Shown here: positions 3,381 through 17,862 of the stretch, piece after piece
Layout: every line of letters starts with the position of its first letter
Position numbering within the stretch: the first letter of the stretch is position 1
IMG/VR virus record: IMGVR_UViG_3300036851_000082
Span: 1-38,284 of that record
DNA: 38,284 nt
Reading direction: 5' to 3' (one strand)
Source of the DNA: a virus
Notes under the pieces: model-generated
The model's input: the letters and a program-made list of their open reading frames with translations, nothing else
Told to the model about the DNA's origin: nothing
The model's database searches: none
Program-made: the position numbers and the translations under genes

Positions 3381-4879
3381 GCACGCTCGACCTTCACTAC
3401 GCGTCACCCGGCCCCGTCGCCGAGCGCTTCCTCTTCGACGATTCTTTCGTGTCGGGCATCATGGGACCGATCGGCAGCGGCAAGACGACGGCGTGCATCG
3501 TCAAGGCGCTTATGTGCTCGTCGAAACAGCCGAAGGACGCGCGCGGCCGCCGGCGCAGTCGTGGCGCCGTCATCCGCAACACCTATCCCGAGCTCAATAC
3601 GACGACGATCAAGTCGTGGCACGAGTGGGTCCCGAAGGATTGCGGGCGCTGGCAGGCCGAGGGACCGCCGACGCATTTCGTGCAAGGCACCGACGGGCTA
3701 GATGCCGAAGTCATGTTTCTCGCGCTCGATCGCCCCGAGGATGTGCGCAAGCTCTTGTCGCTCGAATTGACGTGGGCGTACATCAACGAAGCGAAAGAGG
3801 TTCCGAAAGCGATTCTGGACGGGTTGACCGGCCGCGTCGGGCGCTTTCCGCCGGTCAAGGATGGCGGGTGCGTCGATCCGATTGTCGTCATGGACACGAA
3901 TCCGCCAGACTCCGACCATTGGTGGTACACGCTATCGGAAAACGATACGTCGACAGAGTCCGGCGTCGAGCTCATCGCGAGCATGCGCGACGCCGAGCGC
4001 GAGCTCCGCGAGCACGGCATGTTGCGAGATGGACAATCGCTGTTCCGGTTCTACCGGCAACCGGGCGGCCGCACGGCGGAGGCAGAAAACCTCGCCAACC
4101 TGCGGCCGGCGTATTACACGATCGCGGCCGCTGGCAAATCGTCTGATTGGATCAAAGTCTACATAGAGGGTGAGTACGGTTTCGTTCGCACCGGCAAGCC
4201 CTGCTATCCAGAGTACAGCGATTCGATGCACTGTCGCGAGTTCGAGCTCATTCCGGGCTTGCCGATCTTGATCGGCGTCGACTTTGGCCTGACGCCGGCG
4301 GCCGTGTTCCTGCAACGCAAGGCCACGGGCGCGTGGCGCGCGTTCGACGAGATTGTGAGCGAGCGCATGGGCGCGACCGCACTCGCGGACGCGATCAAGC
4401 AACGCCTGCACGAGCGTTATCCCGAGTACGAAGTCGCGGATATCACGGGCGACCCCGCGGGCGCGCAAGGCGGCAACGACGACCGCAGCGCCTTTCAAAT
4501 CATGGCCGCGAATGGTGTCGCGGCGACGCCGGCGGAAACGAACGACTTCACCACGCGCCGCGAGGCGGTCGCGCACGCGCTCACACGCATTGTCGACGGC
4601 GAGCCCGGTCTCATGATTCACCCGCGCTGCGCGGTCTTGCGCAAGGCATGTGCTGGCGGCTATCAGTTTAAACGCGTGGCCGTGGTCGGGCAGGAACGCT
4701 TTCAAGACAAGCCCGACAAGAATCGCTTCTCGCACGTTGCCGAGGGCTTGCAGTATGGCCTGCTCGGCGGCGGCGAGGGTCGTTTGTTGAAGCGTGCGCC
4801 GAGCGTGCGCGCCAAGCCCAAGACCGAACCGCGCGCTCGTTCTTTGCGTGCGCAAGGTAGCGGCTCGTGGATGGGGTAG
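3377..4879 (+). CDS. terminase large subunit (packaging ATPase/nuclease)
   Basis: 500 residues, normal length for the family. The N-terminal ATPase has Walker A GPIGSGKT at residues 30-37 and a Walker B segment LTWAYINEA at 131-139 with the catalytic Glu. The C-terminal nuclease shows the RNase H-like first acidic motif IGVDFGLTPAAV around residue 300 and a second acidic cluster, DITGDPAG, around 355. The enzyme pumps DNA into the procapsid through the portal and makes the headful cut. It overlaps the preceding gene and is followed after three bases by the portal gene. Confidence 0.95.
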   Translation: MSTLDLHYASPGPVAERFLFDDSFVSGIMGPIGSGKTTACIVKALMCSSKQPKDARGRRRSRGAVIRNTYPELNTTTIKSWHEWVPKDCGRWQAEGPPTHFVQGTDGLDAEVMFLALDRPEDVRKLLSLELTWAYINEAKEVPKAILDGLTGRVGRFPPVKDGGCVDPIVVMDTNPPDSDHWWYTLSENDTSTESGVELIASMRDAERELREHGMLRDGQSLFRFYRQPGGRTAEAENLANLRPAYYTIAAAGKSSDWIKVYIEGEYGFVRTGKPCYPEYSDSMHCREFELIPGLPILIGVDFGLTPAAVFLQRKATGAWRAFDEIVSERMGATALADAIKQRLHERYPEYEVADITGDPAGAQGGNDDRSAFQIMAANGVAATPAETNDFTTRREAVAHALTRIVDGEPGLMIHPRCAVLRKACAGGYQFKRVAVVGQERFQDKPDKNRFSHVAEGLQYGLLGGGEGRLLKRAPSVRAKPKTEPRARSLRAQGSGSWMG

Positions 4880-10187: not shown

Positions 10188-10225
10188 TTGTGTTTTCGCG
10201 CCCGCGGGTGCTCTAATTCGAGCAC
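10188..10225 (+). promoter_or_regulatory. internal late promoter overlapped by repressor-type operator
   Basis: TTGTGT at 10188-10193 and TCTAAT at 10212-10217 (five of six matches to TATAAT) are 18 bases apart. The -10 lies inside a perfect palindrome, GTGCTC-TAATTC-GAGCAC (10208-10225), of exactly the same form and spacing as operators in the immunity region. A bound repressor would cover the -10. As RNA, it would extend to a 10-bp stem (10204-10229) with one G-U pair, so a processing hairpin or terminator is the alternative reading. Confidence 0.65.
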
Positions 10226-10329
10226 TCGCGGAGTCGCGAGGGAACGAAAGAAAGGGACGTCTATGTGAATGAGGCTACCGGCCGCCTTTGACCGGGAGCG
10301 CTGTAAAGCGCCTCGTTGGACGTACTCCA
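10226..10329 (+). promoter_or_regulatory. scaffold mRNA leader with start-stop codon pair
   Basis: About 100 bases without a convincing gene. A good Shine-Dalgarno AGGGA (10253-10257) stands five bases before ATG-TGA (10263-10268), a minimal start-stop element, followed by a GTG frame of eight codons (10265-10291). The scaffold ATG at 10330 itself has only a weak ribosome site. The arrangement could tune ribosome entry on the scaffold message. An overlapping 31-residue frame from 10269 seems a chance ORF. Confidence 0.4.
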
Positions 10330-11262
10330 ATGCCGAACGACACGTTTGTATTGCCCGGAATTGACGCCGCGCCGGCCGCTGCACCCGCAGCCACGCCGGA
10401 TAACTCGACGAGCTCGGCGACCGTCGACACTGGCAGCGCACCCGCTGCCGCGCCCGCGAACAACGACCCGAACGCCCCCGCGCCCGCCCATGATCCAGGC
10501 CAGCAACCGCCGGCCGATCCGAAGGCCGACGACAAGGGCGAGCAGCGTCGCCAATCGCGAGGCATACAACGACGGTTCGACGAGCTCACCGCGGACAACC
10601 GCGCGACGAAGGCCCTGCTCGATCGCACGCTAGGAGTGCTAGAACGCTTCGCGCCGGGACAGCAGCAGCCCGGGCAGGCCGCCGAGCAACCCGAACCGCG
10701 CGAGCAGGATTTCAATTCTTGGCAAGAGTATCAGCGCGCGCTCACGCGTTGGGAGGCTCGGCAGGCGTATTTGGAGTCGACGCGCGCCGACCGTGAAGCG
10801 CAGCAACGGGAACAGCAGCAGCGGGCGACGCATCAACAAACCGCGCAGGTTCAGCAAGCGGTCGAGACGATGCACGCTCACGTCGCAACGGCTATGCAGC
10901 AAGCGGCCGCGCGATACCCCGACTACGTCGACACGATCGAAGGCGCGACGTTCGATATCCCGCCGACGCTCGAATACGCGATCGCGACTAGCGATGCGCC
11001 GGGCGACGTCTGTTACTACCTTGCCAAGAACGAGAATGTTGCCCGGCAACTGGCGCGATTGGCGCCGGTTCAGGCGGCGCACCAAATCGCCCGCATTGCC
11101 GCGCACATGCGCGCAGGACCGTCAATCTCCAACGCGCCCGCACCCGGCCGACCAGCCAACACGCGAGGCGCAGCGGTCAACGCTTACCCGGAAAACGCGA
11201 CGCCCGAGCAGCATAAGGCTTGGTTGGAGCGCCAGAACGCGGGAGCGCGCGCCGCACGTTAA
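10330..11262 (+). CDS. scaffolding protein (P22 gp8-like position and composition)
   Basis: 310 residues (P22 scaffold is 303). The N-terminus is Ala/Pro/Asp-rich and disordered; residues about 75-200 are charged and Gln-rich with long helices (RALTRWEARQAYLE, QQREQQQRATHQQTAQVQQAVETM). The C-terminal 25 residues end in a short basic helix, HKAWLERQNAGARAAR, like the coat-binding basic helix-turn-helix of P22 scaffold. It guides coat assembly and leaves or is degraded before packaging. I used ATG 10330; a TTG at 10288 would extend it but crosses the leader. Directly precedes the coat gene. Confidence 0.85.
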   Translation: MPNDTFVLPGIDAAPAAAPAATPDNSTSSATVDTGSAPAAAPANNDPNAPAPAHDPGQQPPADPKADDKGEQRRQSRGIQRRFDELTADNRATKALLDRTLGVLERFAPGQQQPGQAAEQPEPREQDFNSWQEYQRALTRWEARQAYLESTRADREAQQREQQQRATHQQTAQVQQAVETMHAHVATAMQQAAARYPDYVDTIEGATFDIPPTLEYAIATSDAPGDVCYYLAKNENVARQLARLAPVQAAHQIARIAAHMRAGPSISNAPAPGRPANTRGAAVNAYPENATPEQHKAWLERQNAGARAAR

Positions 11263-11274
11263 AAGGAAATCGAC

Positions 11275-12498
11275 GTGGCGAACCAAATCCTCACCCCGGT
11301 CATGATTACCAATGAAGCGGTAATCGTGCTGGAAAACCAATGCGCGATGGTCAAGCTCTGCGATTCGCAGTACAGCGACCAATTCGCGAAAGACGGCGCG
11401 AAAATCGGCAGCGTTCTCAACGTTCGCAAGCCCCCGCGCTACATCGGCCGCCAAGGCCCGGCACTGTCGGTCGAAGATCAGACCGAAACGCAGGTTCCGC
11501 TCGTCATCACGACGCAGTTCGGCGTCGACGTGCAATTCTCGTCGGCCGACCTGACGCTTTCGCTGCAAGATTTCAGCGCTCGCGTGCTGAAACCGCAAAT
11601 GGCGGTCATCGCCAACCGCGTCGACCGCGACGGCATGCTGCAATACCAAAACGTCGCGAATCTCGTCGGCACGCCGGGCACGCCGCCGGCGACGCTGGGA
11701 TCGTTGCTCGCCGTCGGTCAACGCCTGCAAGAAATGGCGGCGCCTGACGACGGCCAGAAGTTCCTGATTCTCGGGCCGGCCGCGAATACATCGCTCGTCA
11801 ATGGCCTGTCGGGCCTTTTCAATTCGCAGAGCAAGCTCTCCGAGCAATACGGTAGCGGCATGCTCGCCGACGTCGCTGGTCTGAAGGTATTCATGGACCA
11901 GAACGTCGTCACGCAAACGGTGGGCCCGCTCGGCGGGGCGCCGCTTGTCAACGGCGCGAATCAAGGGCTCACGAGCGGATGGGCGTACTCGCAGAACCTT
12001 GTCACCGACGGTTGGACGGCGGCGGCGGCGCTGCGCCTGAATGCGGGCGACGTGTTTACGTTGCAAAACGTGTTCTCTGTCAATCCGCAGTCGCGCGCGT
12101 CGACCGGCGTTCTGCAACAGTTCGTCGTGCAGCAAAACGTGTCGAGCGATGCCGGCGGCAACGCGACGATTCCGATCGTGCCCGCGATCATCAGCGCGGG
12201 GCAATTCCAGAACGTCACGATCACGCCGGCCGACAACGCACCGTTGACGATCTCGGGCTCGGCCGGCGTCGGCTACGCGCAAAACCTCGGATTCCACAAG
12301 TCGGCATTTACCGTCGCCTTCGTCGACATGATCTTGCCGCGTGGCACCGACATGGCCGAGCGTCGCGTGTGGAAGAACGTTTCGATTCGCATCATCCGCG
12401 CCTACGACATCAACAACGACCGTTTCCCATCGCGTACCGACGTGTTGTACGGGTACAAGACGATCTACCCCGAGCTCGGAGTGCGCCTCACGAATTAG
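11275..12498 (+). CDS. major capsid (coat) protein, P22 gp5-like
   Basis: 407 residues from GTG 11275 with AAAAGGAA upstream. The N-terminus (MITNEAVIVLENQCAMVKLCD), the segment KIGSVLNVRKPPRYIGRQG, then VPLVITTQFGVDVQFSSADLTLSLQDF are hallmarks of the P22 coat family, as is the EQYGSGMLADVAGLKVFMDQNVVTQT stretch. P22 coat is 430 residues. The HK97-like core plus inserted I-domain region builds the T=7 procapsid with the scaffold encoded just upstream. Confidence 0.93.
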   Translation: MANQILTPVMITNEAVIVLENQCAMVKLCDSQYSDQFAKDGAKIGSVLNVRKPPRYIGRQGPALSVEDQTETQVPLVITTQFGVDVQFSSADLTLSLQDFSARVLKPQMAVIANRVDRDGMLQYQNVANLVGTPGTPPATLGSLLAVGQRLQEMAAPDDGQKFLILGPAANTSLVNGLSGLFNSQSKLSEQYGSGMLADVAGLKVFMDQNVVTQTVGPLGGAPLVNGANQGLTSGWAYSQNLVTDGWTAAAALRLNAGDVFTLQNVFSVNPQSRASTGVLQQFVVQQNVSSDAGGNATIPIVPAIISAGQFQNVTITPADNAPLTISGSAGVGYAQNLGFHKSAFTVAFVDMILPRGTDMAERRVWKNVSIRIIRAYDINNDRFPSRTDVLYGYKTIYPELGVRLTN

Positions 12499-12564
12499 GG
12501 CGCCCGCGCTCGCGACCCGCGGCGCGCAGAACATCGCGCGCCGCTTTTTCAAAGGAAATTGGCA

Positions 12565-12924
12565 ATGGCGAAACGCCCCGACCTATCGAAGCTCACAGAC
12601 GCGCAATACAAGGCGCTCACGCCCGAGCAATTGCTCGACTACAACAAGCAATTACCCGAGGTCGATTACTCGAATCCGTATCAGCCGAGCGAGCATCCGT
12701 ACCCGAGCATGCGCTTCGCGCTCGTCGATACGCCAAGCGGCAAGCGCTTGCGCACGGCGCGCGTCAACAACGAAGCCGAGGATAAGGCGCTCGGCGAAGG
12801 ATGGGAAAAGTCGTTGCTCGCGCTCGGCATCGAAACCGCGCCCGCGGCGGCGGCGGTGCAGACGGAAGAATTCGAGATCAATCTTCCGCCGGAAAGCGAG
12901 CACGCGAGTGCGGCCTCAGTCTGA
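12565..12924 (+). CDS. hypothetical protein after coat gene
   Basis: 119 residues from ATG 12565 with AAAGGAAA upstream (a TTG at 12559 is less likely). Acidic, with a YKALTPEQLLDYNKQLPEVDY N-terminal part and a C-terminal Ala/Glu tail. No transmembrane or known motif. Its place between coat and a GroES-like gene suggests a role in the head, such as decoration or assembly, but the sequence does not say. The next gene starts inside its last codons. Confidence 0.7.
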   Translation: MAKRPDLSKLTDAQYKALTPEQLLDYNKQLPEVDYSNPYQPSEHPYPSMRFALVDTPSGKRLRTARVNNEAEDKALGEGWEKSLLALGIETAPAAAAVQTEEFEINLPPESEHASAASV

Positions 12925-13186
12925 CCGTCTGGCGGTGCGCCGGCAATCCGGCGAGCGCGTGCTGCCGTGGGGGCTCGTCATTCCCGGCGGGGAAGATCAC
13001 GGGACCGCGCACGTCGGCGTCGTCGTCGACGCTGGCCCGGGCCGGCGCGTGCGCGAGCGCGTGCTGCCGATGGAATGCGCCGTCGGCGACGTCGTCTTGT
13101 ACTCGTCGCGCACCGACGCCTTCGTGCTCGGGGATGGCTCGCACGTCGACGTCGTCGAAGAAGCAAGCGTAATCGGAGTTTTCTGA
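12908..13186 (+). CDS. single-domain GroES-like (Cpn10-fold) protein
   Basis: 92 residues from GTG 12908, overlapping the previous gene's end by 17 bases. It follows the Cpn10 pattern: SDRLAVRRQSGERV, then a mobile-loop-like segment with hydrophobic triplet LVI (GLVIPGG), AHVGVVVDAGPGRR (compare the VVAVGPG of GroES), CAVGDVVLYSS (compare VGDKVLF) and a closing VVEEASVIGVF (compare LREDDILAVIE). Likely a co-chaperonin that caps host GroEL, as T4 gp31 does for its coat protein. It stands right behind the coat gene. No GroEL is encoded here. Confidence 0.82.
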   Translation: MRPQSDRLAVRRQSGERVLPWGLVIPGGEDHGTAHVGVVVDAGPGRRVRERVLPMECAVGDVVLYSSRTDAFVLGDGSHVDVVEEASVIGVF

Positions 13187-13896
13187 TGGCCGTCACCGTC
13201 ACCGGCAACGATCTAATCAAGGATGCGAGCTTGCTCGCTGGCGTTGGCGATCAGTACAACCCCGACGACTACGCGACGCAATCGCTGGCTGTGCGCATGC
13301 TGAACGACATGCTCGACGCGTGGTCGGCCGATCCGCTGCTCGTGTTCGCGGTCCTTGAGGGTGTCGTGCCTATCACGGTCGGCGTCAACACGATCACGCT
13401 GCCCGGCGGCACCGTCACCGTCAACCCCAGCGTCATCAATGCCGTTAGCATCGTCGATTCCGGCAACAACACCTATCCGTGCACGATCATCGGCGCCGCC
13501 GACTGGGCGAAGATTCAGTACAAGCCCTCTAGCGGGCGCCCCGAGGTCGTTTATTTCGACTACGGGCGCCCCGTTTGCACCGGCTATCTGTACTACACGC
13601 CCGCGTTCGCCGGCGACACGCTGCACGTCTGGTATCAGCAGGATTTGCAGAATTTCGTCGCGCTGACGAACGTGCTCGTTGCGCCGCAGGGCTATTCGCT
13701 CGCGATCAAGTGCTCGCTCGCGCGCTTGATGTGCGTCGCCAACGGCAAGGAAGCGTCGGCCGAATTGCGCCGGCAAGAGCGCATCGCCAACCGCACCGCG
13801 CGCCTCGGCCACATTCAGCCGACCACGCTACCGATGGCGGCGCCGATCGGCGACGGCGGCCATTACAACATCTACACCGACAGGTATACGCGATGA
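13186..13896 (+). CDS. tail accessory factor / head completion protein (P22 gp4-like)
   Basis: 236 residues from ATG 13186, sharing a base with the previous stop. The N-terminus (GNDLIKDASLLAGVGDQYNPDDYATQSLAVRMLNDMLDAWSADPLLVF) is typical of the P22 gp4 family: helices that bind the portal bottom. A strand-rich middle and a C-terminal helix (SLAIKCSLARLMCVANGKEASAELRRQERIANRTAR) follow. It closes the packaged head and makes the first tail ring. P22 gp4 is 166 residues; this one has a longer middle. Confidence 0.85.
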   Translation: MAVTVTGNDLIKDASLLAGVGDQYNPDDYATQSLAVRMLNDMLDAWSADPLLVFAVLEGVVPITVGVNTITLPGGTVTVNPSVINAVSIVDSGNNTYPCTIIGAADWAKIQYKPSSGRPEVVYFDYGRPVCTGYLYYTPAFAGDTLHVWYQQDLQNFVALTNVLVAPQGYSLAIKCSLARLMCVANGKEASAELRRQERIANRTARLGHIQPTTLPMAAPIGDGGHYNIYTDRYTR

Positions 13897-14510
13897 CCGA
13901 CAAGGTTCCGTTCCGGCCGCCGCACGATGTAGTCATCTGCCGCAAGCAATCGCGCGAGGAAAAGCGCGACAGCGGCCTCGTCGTTCCCGAATTCGCGGAA
14001 GCGCGCCCCGACGCACTCGTGCTTGCGGCCGGCGAGGGTCAACTGCAACACGACGGTACGCGTCTGCCCATGCACGTGCGCGTTGGCGATACCGTGATAT
14101 TCCCCGAGACGCGCGGGCAGAAATTCTCGTACCACGGCATCGAATATCTCGCGATTCGCGAGGGGCACTGCATCGCGCTCGTCGACGCCGCCGGCGAGCT
14201 CGTGCCGTTGGCCGACTTCGTCATCGCCGAGCAGTTGCCGACGGAGCGCGTCAACGACGGCGGTGTCATCGTCATTCCGTCGACCGCCGACGATCGCGAC
14301 GAGGCGACGCTGCTCGCGGTCGGGCCCGGCCGCATCCGCGACGATGGCGCCCGCGCCGAACCGCAATTGCGCGCCGGCGAGCGCGTGCTCTATATGAAGC
14401 GCCAGGGCGACCATTTCACGCACAAAGGCCGCGCGCTCGTCGCCTTCCGCGAGGAACACGTCGTTTGCGTGACCGCTGACGCACCCGTTGCCGAGGCAGT
14501 GGCAGCGTGA
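13893..14510 (+). CDS. tandem double GroES-like protein
   Basis: 205 residues, ATGA overlap with the gp4-like gene. Two Cpn10-type domains in a row. Domain 1 (about 1-100): HDVVICRKQSREEKRDSGLVVPE, ALVLAAGEGQ, HVRVGDTVIFPE, EYLAIREGHCIALVD. Domain 2 (about 105-198): FVIAEQLPTERVNDGGVIVIPS, TLLAVGPGR, LRAGERVLYMK, ALVAFREEHVVCVTA. Each keeps a hydrophobic triplet (LVV; VIV) where GroES has the IVL that docks into GroEL. A fused pair would be a pseudo-symmetric cap. It is a separate gene from the single-domain one at 12908. Confidence 0.85.
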   Translation: MTDKVPFRPPHDVVICRKQSREEKRDSGLVVPEFAEARPDALVLAAGEGQLQHDGTRLPMHVRVGDTVIFPETRGQKFSYHGIEYLAIREGHCIALVDAAGELVPLADFVIAEQLPTERVNDGGVIVIPSTADDRDEATLLAVGPGRIRDDGARAEPQLRAGERVLYMKRQGDHFTHKGRALVAFREEHVVCVTADAPVAEAVAA

Positions 14511-16720
14511 GCAACACCGGCAAAATTATGCCGCTGTTCGGATTCGGCACCGGCCGCAAGTCGGCCAACGTGTCGGCGCAGCAGCGCACGAACCTGTACG
14601 TGGAAGTCATGGAGGACGAGGAAAAGGGCAGGCTCGTTTTGTACGCGCGCCCCGGCCTCGTGCGTCAAGTGATCGCGCTACGGCCAGGGCCGCCGCTCGG
14701 CTATACGCCGGTTCCGGGCGCGATCCGCGGCATGATTCAAGTGTTCAACGAGGGCTTGCGCGCCGACGTTGTCTACTATGCCGCCGGGAATGTGTTCTAT
14801 TGGATGGACGGCCCGCTCGCGCAACTGGCGATGCCGGCGGCGACGCCTTCGCCGACATTCCTCGCGTCGACCGGCCCCGTGCGCTTCGCCTTCAATGGCG
14901 ACGAAGTCCTCGCCGTCGACGGAGTATCGGCGTATCTGATAAGCGGCGGCGTTCCGTTCGTCACCGATAGCTCGGGGATGCTGAATCCTCCGCCAGCGGG
15001 CGCGCGCACTGTCTGCGCCCTCGGCGGCTTCCTCGTGTGCGACGATCCGAGCGCGTCGGGCCGCTGGCGCTGGTCGGACATCAACGACGCCTCGTCCTGG
15101 CCGTCGCTCAACTTCGCCACGGCCGAGCTATTGCCCGACACGCTAACGGGCGTGTTCGCCGCGCACGGCGAGCTCTGGCTAATGGGCGCGTCGTCGATCG
15201 AAATATGGGCGGTACAGCCGTCTGGCCTGACGGGCTCACAACCGTTTACGCGCATTCCCGGCGTTGCGGTGGAATGGGGCACGACGGCGTACGACACGAT
15301 TCGCCAAGTCGGCGGCGGCGGCGAAGTGTGCTTCCTCGGCCGCAACATCAATGGGCAGCGCCAAGTCGTCATGATGCAGGCGTACAAGGCGAGCGTGGTA
15401 TCGACGCCGGATATCGACGCCGAAATCGCCGCCGACCTGACGCCCGACGCAGCGACGGCCGTCGTCGAGATTCACTCTGGGCATATCTGGTACGTGCTCA
15501 ACCTTGCCTCGCGCTCGTGGGCCTTCGACCTGACTACTTCGCAAAAGGTCGGCGCTCCCGTGTGGGAAATCTGGTCGACCGATGGCGGCCGCTACGCCGG
15601 ACAGTATGCGGTTACGGCGTGGAATATTCAATTTCAGAGCGACTATCGCGATCAACGCATCTATCAACTTGGCGCGGGCGTGTACACCGACGACGGCCAA
15701 ACGCTGGCGCGCGAGGTCGTTACGAAGCATGCTGTTGGCGACTACGAGCGCTTCACTATCGATGAGATTTTCGTCGACCTCGAAACCGGCGTCGGCGCCG
15801 AAACCGGCGGCGCGCCACCGGGCAGCGCTTTGCGCTTCGACGGCGTTTCTACGTACGTCAACGTTCCCGACGTCGTCGCGCATCAAATCGCGCCGCCGCT
15901 CACGCTCGAAGCAATGGTTACGTTTCACTCCGCCGTCCCGCCGTTGCAGGGCATCGTGCGCAAGATGGATGCCGGTATTCCGCAAGTGGAATGGCTGTTG
16001 CAGGCGTTCAATGGAAGGATACGCGCCAGCTACACGGGCGCGACCGGCATTAAACACGAGACACCGGAATTCCTATTCACGGTCGGCGTTCCCACGCGCG
16101 TGTCAGCGCGTATAGCGCCCACCGTCATAGAGCTTTTCATAAATGGCGTGTTTTTCGGATTGACGCCAATCACCGGCGGAACACCGGCGCCAGTGGGCGA
16201 GCCACTAACTATCGGCTGCATTTCTCCGTACGCGCTGTCGCCAGTGCCAACCGAATTCGCGCCCGCCACGATTTCGGACGTGCGCTTGTGGAATATATTG
16301 CGCACGCCGGAGCAGATTCTTACGCTGGCCTTCGAACGCCTTAATGGTAGCGAGCCCGGACTGCTGTCGTACTGGAAACTGGACGAGGGCAACGGCCTCG
16401 TCGCGAACGACACGATGGGCGTGCAGAACGGAGCCCTTACGTCGACGACGCCGGCGTCGACTATGCCGCAATGGGTCGCGGACCCGACGTGGCCGAACAA
16501 CACCGTCGCCACGACGCCGCAAATCATGGCGCAATGGTCGAAGGACGGCGGGCACACGTGGGGCTCGGAAATTTGGCAATCGCTCGGCGCGATCGGCGCT
16601 TATCGCGTGCGCGCGGTGTGGCGGATGCTTGGGCTCGGCCGCGATTGGCTGTTTCGCCTGCGCGTCACCGACGCGATCAAAGTCGTGATTATCAACGCCG
16701 CCATGCGGGTGCGGGGCTAG
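14507..16720 (+). CDS. packaged-DNA stabilisation / tail hub protein (P22 gp10-like) with inserted LamG domain
   Basis: 737 residues from GTG 14507 (GTGA overlap). Residues 1-433 match the gp10 family: QQRTNLYVEV, LYARPGLV, strand-rich propeller repeats, RWRWSDINDASSWP, SSIEIWAV, VEWGTTAYDTI, VWEIWSTDGGRYAG, ETGVG. The family's C-terminal motif, with SKDGGHTWGSE, YRVRAVWRMLGLGRDWLFRLRVTD and INAAMR, resumes at about 668. Between them, about 434-667, lies a complete LamG-like jelly roll (ALRFDGVSTYVNVPD, LTLEAMVTF, VIELFINGVFFG, ISDVRLWNILRTPEQI, LLSYWKLDEG). Without the insert it would be about 503 residues, near P22 gp10 (472). Confidence 0.9.
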   Translation: MSNTGKIMPLFGFGTGRKSANVSAQQRTNLYVEVMEDEEKGRLVLYARPGLVRQVIALRPGPPLGYTPVPGAIRGMIQVFNEGLRADVVYYAAGNVFYWMDGPLAQLAMPAATPSPTFLASTGPVRFAFNGDEVLAVDGVSAYLISGGVPFVTDSSGMLNPPPAGARTVCALGGFLVCDDPSASGRWRWSDINDASSWPSLNFATAELLPDTLTGVFAAHGELWLMGASSIEIWAVQPSGLTGSQPFTRIPGVAVEWGTTAYDTIRQVGGGGEVCFLGRNINGQRQVVMMQAYKASVVSTPDIDAEIAADLTPDAATAVVEIHSGHIWYVLNLASRSWAFDLTTSQKVGAPVWEIWSTDGGRYAGQYAVTAWNIQFQSDYRDQRIYQLGAGVYTDDGQTLAREVVTKHAVGDYERFTIDEIFVDLETGVGAETGGAPPGSALRFDGVSTYVNVPDVVAHQIAPPLTLEAMVTFHSAVPPLQGIVRKMDAGIPQVEWLLQAFNGRIRASYTGATGIKHETPEFLFTVGVPTRVSARIAPTVIELFINGVFFGLTPITGGTPAPVGEPLTIGCISPYALSPVPTEFAPATISDVRLWNILRTPEQILTLAFERLNGSEPGLLSYWKLDEGNGLVANDTMGVQNGALTSTTPASTMPQWVADPTWPNNTVATTPQIMAQWSKDGGHTWGSEIWQSLGAIGAYRVRAVWRMLGLGRDWLFRLRVTDAIKVVIINAAMRVRG

Positions 16721-16722
16721 TC

Positions 16723-17862
16723 GTGGTCACGAGCGTCGACCTAGCGCCCCCGCTGCCGCGCTATAACGAGCTCACGGTTAAGCCATCCATCGGCGAAGGC
16801 GACGCGATCGAATCGCGGCCGATGCGTAACTGGATGGCGGGCATTTCCAACGTCATCGCCAGCATTCTTGCTGACGGGCAAACGTTCGCGCTCCAAGCTA
16901 ACCGCCAGCTTCGCAACATCCTATACAACGGCGCATTCAACGTGTGGCAGCGCGGCGTTACCGGCTTCACGTCGGCGGCCGCGCCCGTCAATGGCCCCGA
17001 CCGTTGGCAAATCTTTCGTGGCGTCGGAGGTGCGACGCTGGCGCGCATCACATTTTTTAGCGACGCCATTCCCTATCTGTGCAGGATGCAGCGCACGGCG
17101 GCCGACGCGAGCCTCGTGGATATCTACCTCGGTCAATCGCTCGAAACGATCGACAGCGTCCCGCTTGCTGGTGCAACGGTGTCGCTGTCGTTCCAAGCGG
17201 CTGCGGGCGCTAATTATTCTGGCGGCGTGTTGACGGCGGTGGTGCGCTCTGGCACTGGCACCGATCAAAACATCTTTGGCGCATACACCGGAACGAATGA
17301 TTTTCTGACCATAACCGGAACGCTTACCGGGTCGCTGCAAACGTTCTCGGGCTCGGCTGTGGTGCCGGTTAATTGCAACGAGCTTGGTGTGTATTTCTTT
17401 TACACGCCCAGCGGTGTCGCCGGCGCAAACGACTACGTCGACTTTGCGCAGGTTCAACTCGAAGTGGCGCCAGCGGCTACGCCATTCGAGTATCGGCAAT
17501 TCAACGACGAGCTCGCGCGCTGCCAGCGCTATTTTCAGAAGTCGTACGACTACCCGACGGCGCCGGCGACGATCATTGCATTTGGGTGCGTCATGTATCG
17601 CGTGCAGATCGCCGGCGTTGCCGCCGGATGGACGCAGCACGTTAGGTTTGCGCGACCGATGCGCGTGGCCCCGACTATCACGACCTACAACCCAGCGGCC
17701 GTTGGCGCCACGTGGTTCAACGCAACCGCGGCCGCCAATTCCGGCGCGGCGGCGCTCGTCAACACCGGCGATAGCGGGATCAACATTCGCAATCCGCAAG
17801 TCGTCGGCGATGCCGTGGGCAACGAGATCGAAATTCACTGGTCCGCGGATGCGGAGCTCTGA
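16723..17862 (+). CDS. tail fibre-type protein
   Basis: 379 residues from GTG 16723, two bases after the gp10-like stop. The motif set NGAFNVWQRGVTGF...GPDRWQIFRG, then VSLSFQA, and FAQVQLEVAPAATPFEYRQFNDELARCQRYFQKSYDY is a familiar carbohydrate-binding-type layout in phage tail and fibre proteins. The last 100 residues are strand-rich. Its place after the gp10-like adaptor, where P22 has the gp26 needle gene, suggests a tail-tip or fibre role. Confidence 0.8.
   Translation: MVTSVDLAPPLPRYNELTVKPSIGEGDAIESRPMRNWMAGISNVIASILADGQTFALQANRQLRNILYNGAFNVWQRGVTGFTSAAAPVNGPDRWQIFRGVGGATLARITFFSDAIPYLCRMQRTAADASLVDIYLGQSLETIDSVPLAGATVSLSFQAAAGANYSGGVLTAVVRSGTGTDQNIFGAYTGTNDFLTITGTLTGSLQTFSGSAVVPVNCNELGVYFFYTPSGVAGANDYVDFAQVQLEVAPAATPFEYRQFNDELARCQRYFQKSYDYPTAPATIIAFGCVMYRVQIAGVAAGWTQHVRFARPMRVAPTITTYNPAAVGATWFNATAAANSGAAALVNTGDSGINIRNPQVVGDAVGNEIEIHWSADAEL

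Follow-up and report, generated by a model that had tools for sequence, protein, structure and literature searches.

GroES contacts GroEL through three aliphatic residues of a disordered loop. In Chlamydomonas, the chloroplast proteins Cpn20 and Cpn23 combine with a single-domain subunit to form hetero-oligomers of seven GroES-like domains (PMC5780408), while one of the Arabidopsis Cpn10 proteins requires mixing with Cpn20 for its activity (PMC4242682). Among phages, T4 gp31 has a mobile loop of 22 rather than 16 residues and no roof loops, so that its chamber offers more room to the coat protein gp23 (PMC6318259). The coat protein of phage P22 is also linked to this system: GroEL binds its ts mutants, which GroEL/S rescues, and plating of the phage relies on wild-type GroEL/S (Nakonechny and Teschke 1998, cited via PMC2267774).

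The window analysed here is an entire IMG/VR virus record of 38,284 bases, which Pfam and PHROG matches to its genes place with the P22-type podoviruses. The gene set comprises the small and large terminase subunits, portal, scaffold, P22 coat, and gp4-like and gp10-like connectors, with further genes for a tail fibre, a DNA-ejection protein and an endolysin; integrase, RecT-like and RecE-like genes lie on the opposite strand. No tRNA gene was found in the window, and phage isolate records contained no DNA-level relative of positions 10200-16800. A host was sought through prophages with a similar coat in two scans of 84,980 bacterial and archaeal genomes, in which the best coats reached only 40-41% identity, one from an Azospirillum-type and one from a Methylocapsa-type metagenome bin.

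Two Cpn10/GroES-like genes, one of a single domain and one a head-to-tail tandem, are located between the coat and gp10-like genes (Table 1). Gene ends overlap throughout 12559-14510. The start of the single Cpn10 gene sits within the 3' end of the preceding small gene, its TGA shares bases with the gp4-like ATG (13186), the gp4-like stop overlaps the tandem ATG (13893), and the tandem stop in turn overlaps the gp10-like GTG (14507). These overlaps suggest that translation is coupled with that of the structural genes. From the overlapping start and stop codons, and from the position among the coat, gp4-like and gp10-like genes, we infer that both Cpn10 genes are late genes.

Table 1. Features of the coat to gp10-like interval of the window, with the GroES genes of Cellulophaga phage phi18:3
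Feature	Position	Strand	Evidence
P22-type major coat protein, 407 aa	11275..12498	+	PF11651 E 5e-33; PHROG 283 major head protein E 2.6e-74
Small gene, about 120 aa, between coat and single Cpn10	12559..12924	+	Kept across clade
Single-domain Cpn10/GroES-like gene, 92 aa, GTG start	12908..13186	+	PF00166 E 6.9e-8, residues 1-91
Single-domain mobile-loop triplet LVI (G-LVI-P)	12974..12982	+	Alignment; adjoins low-pLDDT residues 28-31
gp4-like head-tail connector gene, between the two Cpn10 genes	13186..13896	+	PHROG 12985 E 1e-20 (unknown function)
Tandem Cpn10/GroES-like gene, 205 aa, ATG start, two head-to-tail domains	13893..14510	+	PF00166 twice, E 1.5e-31
Tandem domain 1 (T1)	13911..14177	+	Pfam E 9.6e-19
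T1 mobile-loop triplet LVV (G-LVV-P)	13977..13985	+	Alignment; adjoins low-pLDDT residues 32-36
Linker DAAGELV, about 7 codons, from T1 C-terminal strand to T2 N-terminal strand	14184..14204	+	Sequence; Cpn20/Cpn23 alignment
Tandem domain 2 (T2)	14199..14471	+	Pfam E 1.4e-14
T2 mobile-loop aliphatic run VIVI (G-VIVI-P)	14265..14276	+	Alignment; low-pLDDT residues 125-131
gp10-like head-closure gene, 737 aa	14507..16720	+	PHROG 578 head closure E 1.5e-60
phi18:3 GroES genes	L092:31108-31362 and 41458-42060		

Several features of the neighbouring genes can be recorded here. The small gene has no Pfam or PHROG family match and is 30-48% identical throughout the clade described below. The gp4-like gene displays an additional weak match to PHROG 637, a head-tail adaptor (E 0.0032). 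The gp10-like protein is longer than the approximately 480-510 aa seen in relatives; a laminin-G-like domain at residues 445-604, slightly below the Pfam cut-off, seems to be inserted, and the C-terminus of the gp10-like protein from the L141 relative joins onto window residues 671-735.

Both GroES-like genes proposed in the initial annotation, one with a single domain at 12908 and one a fusion of two at 13893, are in place and recognised by Pfam as Cpn10. When the Pfam Cpn10 model was applied to the window DNA, the stretch of the single gene (12908-13180) was matched with E 2.9e-9, and the matches in the whole record amount to exactly three stretches, all above the curated cut-off. PHROGs also assigns phrog_3188, co-chaperonin GroES. 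The presence of three Cpn10 domains in two genes is confirmed, well past chance, and both proteins are Cpn10 family members by every test that could be run. A search for GroEL (PF00118), which matched GroEL-type chaperonins in 14/14 control genomes, found none in the window (38,284 bases) or in three related records, each 37-39 kb long, bearing out within the record the earlier claim that a GroEL is absent. Across G000, G001, G006, G008, G009 and G011, no phage GroEL was found. The lack of a GroEL in these phage records points to dependence on that of the host.

Structure prediction of each protein alone had been suggested as a check on these assignments, and a Cpn10 fold is predicted for both. 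The AF2 models are single-chain and were built from shallow phage alignments (4-5 sequences), with pLDDT of 78.6 for the tandem and 79.7 for the single protein; the lowest values are found at or beside the mobile loops (Table 1) and at the tandem C-terminus. Compared with solved structures, the model of the single protein retrieves Cpn10 proteins, with 1wnr_G the best match (Z 12.4) followed by 3nx6 (Z 12.2). The tandem model is closest to 7ekq_R, the Chlamydomonas Cpn20, which it matches across both domains (Z 14.0, 175 residues, rmsd 4.2 Å), while the T4 gp31 structure is a weaker match (1g31, Z 8.0) and the GroES-like folds of oxidoreductases of the quinone oxidoreductase and alcohol dehydrogenase types score far lower (Z about 6-7.6). 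A phmmer search with the tandem sequence also finds Cpn23 and Cpn20 of 7ekq over both domains, with E 5.7e-16 and 1.7e-12 respectively. The two-domain match at 4.2 Å is compatible with T1 and T2 occupying neighbouring ring positions; ring geometry cannot be deduced from this model because it is a single chain.

Relatives were collected by searching 2.9 million viral contigs with the coat protein and then the tandem protein as bait, with contigs that end inside the region counted only for the genes they cover. The pair is kept in at least eight lineages (the window, L004, L009, L014, L078, L084, L085 and L141; 21 contigs) of one P22-coat podovirus clade. These share the gene order coat, small gene, single Cpn10, gp4-like, tandem Cpn10, gp10-like, as do all relatives whose coat is about 70% or more identical to that of the window. 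No contig spanning the whole region has one Cpn10 gene but not the other. The coats of the other lineages are 71-75% identical to that of the window, as against about 35-50% for the Cpn10 proteins. Judged from these comparisons, the pair is evolving rapidly, yet it is never lost within the clade. For the best-resolved lineage pairs (L009/L078 and L009/L014), dN/dS is 0.14-0.21, and in L009/L078 (dS about 0.65) the single gene has 0.15 and the tandem gene 0.14; comparisons of the window with its relatives give higher values (0.25-0.68) with dS near saturation, as it is for many lineage pairs. In the best-resolved pairs, both Cpn10 genes are under purifying selection.

No Cpn10 gene lies nearby in relatives whose coat is at most 48% identical to that of the window. 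The presence of the pair in close relatives and its absence from these more distant phages suggests that it was either acquired within this clade or lost by phages beyond it. Models built from the domains of the pair detected no hidden Cpn10 near gp4 in the sister phages; a distant one occurs in L035/L036. In L035 (969-1475, + strand) and L057 (1465-1965, - strand), with coats 38-39% identical to that of the window, there is a Cpn10 protein of about 168 aa; in L035 its gene precedes that of the coat by about 6.5 kb. These proteins contain a CxxC...CxxC zinc-ribbon-like insert at the expected position of the roof hairpin, and the mobile-loop triplet is altered to LHM/MHM. Unrelated extra genes are located between coat and gp4 in other sister phages (L018:2973-3695 and 3674-4219; L040:490-1146) and appear by eye to be glycosyltransferase- and methyltransferase-like. 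The coat–gp4 interval may be a spot where cargo genes come and go.

The hydrophobic triplets LVI, LVV and VIV(I), which the initial annotation had ascribed to the mobile loops, are all found at that position by alignment. A glycine, three aliphatic residues and a proline occur there in 24/24 phage domains, and the aliphatic triplet is also present in 48/48 of the bacterial GroES proteins compared. In a 21-domain phage alignment, 8 of the 89 filled columns contain aliphatic residues throughout, and nowhere but in the triplet do three such columns stand side by side. The triplet is kept even though both models show the loop as one of their least ordered regions, which fits an exposed binding loop rather than core packing. 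The retention of an exposed hydrophobic triplet in a fast-evolving protein is best explained by binding. Directly behind the triplet, the T1 mobile loop of lineages other than the window contains 7-9 extra residues; the T1 loop of the window itself has no insertion. The roof hairpin of the single protein is a few residues shorter in L084 and L085, and of near-normal length elsewhere. A lengthened T1 loop and a shortened single roof are the same two types of change that accompany chamber enlargement in T4 gp31, a parallel we consider no more than suggestive.

The origin of the domains was approached with a tree in which 21 phage domains were analysed together with 24 bacterial GroES sequences. 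The single domains form one group (100/99), as do the T2 domains (91/99), with support of 67/81 for a grouping of all phage domains and 78/82 for T1 with T2. Groupings of the single domains with T2 or with T1 are not rejected (AU p 0.475 and 0.169, respectively), with long branches in play, and the Cpn10 proteins of the window are themselves on long branches. The tree appears compatible with either one or several acquisitions of the three domains, and does not decide between them. Phage records, 'Listeria' ones among them, gave tblastn matches to the tandem; these were discarded as candidate tandem genes, with both query halves aligning to one short stretch; they are single-domain GroES, and some of the contigs are apparently bacterial.

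We propose that the pair is a phage co-chaperonin that probably forms a mixed ring, itself probably of seven domains, on the GroEL of the host. It would consist of two kinds of subunit, the single Cpn10 domain and the tandem of two, both made alongside the coat and connector proteins, with co-expression suggested by the putative translational coupling of the genes. The subunits would assemble with, for example, three singles and two tandems, or one single and three tandems. Through the aliphatic triplet of each mobile loop, the ring would cap host GroEL and so turn the folding chamber over to virion proteins, of which the P22-type coat is the likeliest. Singles would be needed to reach seven because tandems alone never give an odd number, while single:tandem ratios of 1:3, 3:2 and 5:1 do. 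This arithmetic matches the invariable co-occurrence of both genes, and the mixed-ring idea, raised in the initial annotation, gains weight from the retention of both genes across eight lineages. Given the GroEL/S dependence of P22, at least of its ts coat mutants, and the adjacent P22-type coat gene, the neighbouring coat protein would be the likeliest client.

It is conceivable that the two genes instead encode two separate co-chaperonins, a single-domain homoheptamer and a tandem ring of six or eight domains, with different clients such as the coat and other virion proteins. In E. coli, Plasmodium Cpn20 by itself takes the place of GroES, and concatamers with six or eight GroES-like domains are functional with GroEL (PMC5780408); hence a tandem can work alone and a mixed ring is not forced. 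Arabidopsis Cpn10(2) and Cpn20 also each form active homo-oligomers (PMC4242682), and in the phage the gp4-like gene separates the single and tandem genes, the domains of which lie well apart on the tree. Against this stand the retention of both genes together in all lineages, the odd symmetry of GroEL, which favours the addition of singles, and the Cpn11/20/23 precedent, which is a mixed ring. We therefore view two independent lids as unlikely. Taking the mixed-ring and two-lid readings together, a co-chaperonin function is likely.

Roles away from GroEL were also considered. The Cpn10 genes flank the gp4-like gene amid structural genes and have diverged from bacterial GroES, as might be the case if the Cpn10 folds served as connector or decoration proteins, with the tandem as a bridge from gp4 to gp10 and the single placed near the coat. 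Such a gp4–gp10 adaptor had been raised as an alternative in the initial annotation and gained no support. In four sister phages, gp4 directly adjoins gp10 with no Cpn10 gene between them (L016 3540/3547, L037 2105/2109, L040 2203/2208, L041 3517/3518), which suggests that the joint needs none, and a virion part would have no need of an exposed GroEL-gripping triplet in every domain. A further, weak indication comes from phi18:3, where several structural genes were annotated from virion MS/MS and both GroES genes by similarity only. A structural adaptor is hence disfavoured and, in our view, improbable. The top structural match of the tandem, 7ekq, is titled 'CrClpP-S2c', a ClpP complex that holds Cpn20 and Cpn23 chains, and it could be imagined that a Cpn10 ring caps ClpP or another seven-fold ring of the host, inhibiting or redirecting proteolysis; blocking ClpP could benefit the phage. 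The precedent is one eukaryotic structure, however, and the coat-adjacent position favours folding, making this the least likely of the explanations.

Should the mixed ring on host GroEL be correct, the lid of the phage would be asymmetric, its loops and roof unequal, and tuned to a coat of P22 type. The conserved pair suggests that a virus may build such a lid on a host chaperonin, and it adjoins a type of coat for which GroEL/GroES dependence is a classic laboratory case. It would provide a small prokaryotic model, of two genes, in which to study why Cpn10 and Cpn20 are mixed in chloroplasts, and a route to ask how lid asymmetry selects clients. Whether the phage has arrived, apparently independently, at the chloroplast solution of an obligate mixed seven-domain ring of single and tandem Cpn10 is a question on which we are evenly balanced. 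No description of a single/tandem co-chaperonin pair in phages was found in the open-access literature searched.

Double-length Cpn10 proteins are already known in other phages. Cellulophaga phage phi18:3 (L092, NC_021794) encodes a single-domain GroES, gp080 (84 aa), and the double-length gp096 (200 aa, 'chaperonin cpn10', S0A356). The two genes are 10 kb apart, with that of gp096 adjoining the terminase and portal genes. In structure, both halves of gp096 match the tandem model (TM 0.55/0.56), and Pfam recognises the second half only. Kinship to the tandem family is not claimed, the profile comparison being non-significant (probability 6.6%). Phi18:3 belongs to a different phage family, with phi13:2, phi19:3 and phi46:3 as relatives, and its single/double GroES set is possibly an independent case. 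Other phages, such as the HTVC023P-type pelagiphages, in which GroES is a core gene (PMC9599517), and jumbo phages, have a PF00166-type GroES in one single-domain gene and no single/tandem pair.

T4 gp31, offered as precedent in the initial annotation, stands as the known phage case, although the phi18:3 set and the chloroplast mixed rings of Cpn10 and Cpn20 are closer. Like the proposed phage lid, gp31 is a phage protein of GroES fold, which replaces GroES on host GroEL for folding of the major coat, and its longer mobile loop and missing roof are partly paralleled in some lineages of the pair. The well-studied gp31 is, however, the product of one gene with one domain that forms a homoheptamer, in a T4-type myovirus with an unrelated coat, in contrast to a conserved pair in a small 38 kb phage. 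Furthermore, gp31 is only 14% identical to GroES (PMC6318259), whereas the domains of the pair are recognised by the Pfam Cpn10 model.

The chloroplast systems of Chlamydomonas and Arabidopsis, with Cpn10/Cpn11 and Cpn20/Cpn23, likewise divide their Cpn10 domains between a single-domain protein and one with two domains joined head to tail, and the phage tandem aligns with Cpn20/Cpn23 over both domains by sequence as well as by predicted structure. The chloroplast partners assemble as seven-domain mixed rings, as is proposed for the phage pair. They are eukaryotic organelle proteins acting on a hetero-oligomeric Cpn60, unlike the phage pair, which has no Cpn60 of its own and is embedded in a run of coat and connector genes. 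The phage tandem fusion may be independent of that in chloroplast Cpn20. By analogy, the pair would work most like chloroplast Cpn10/Cpn20, with a purpose resembling that of gp31.
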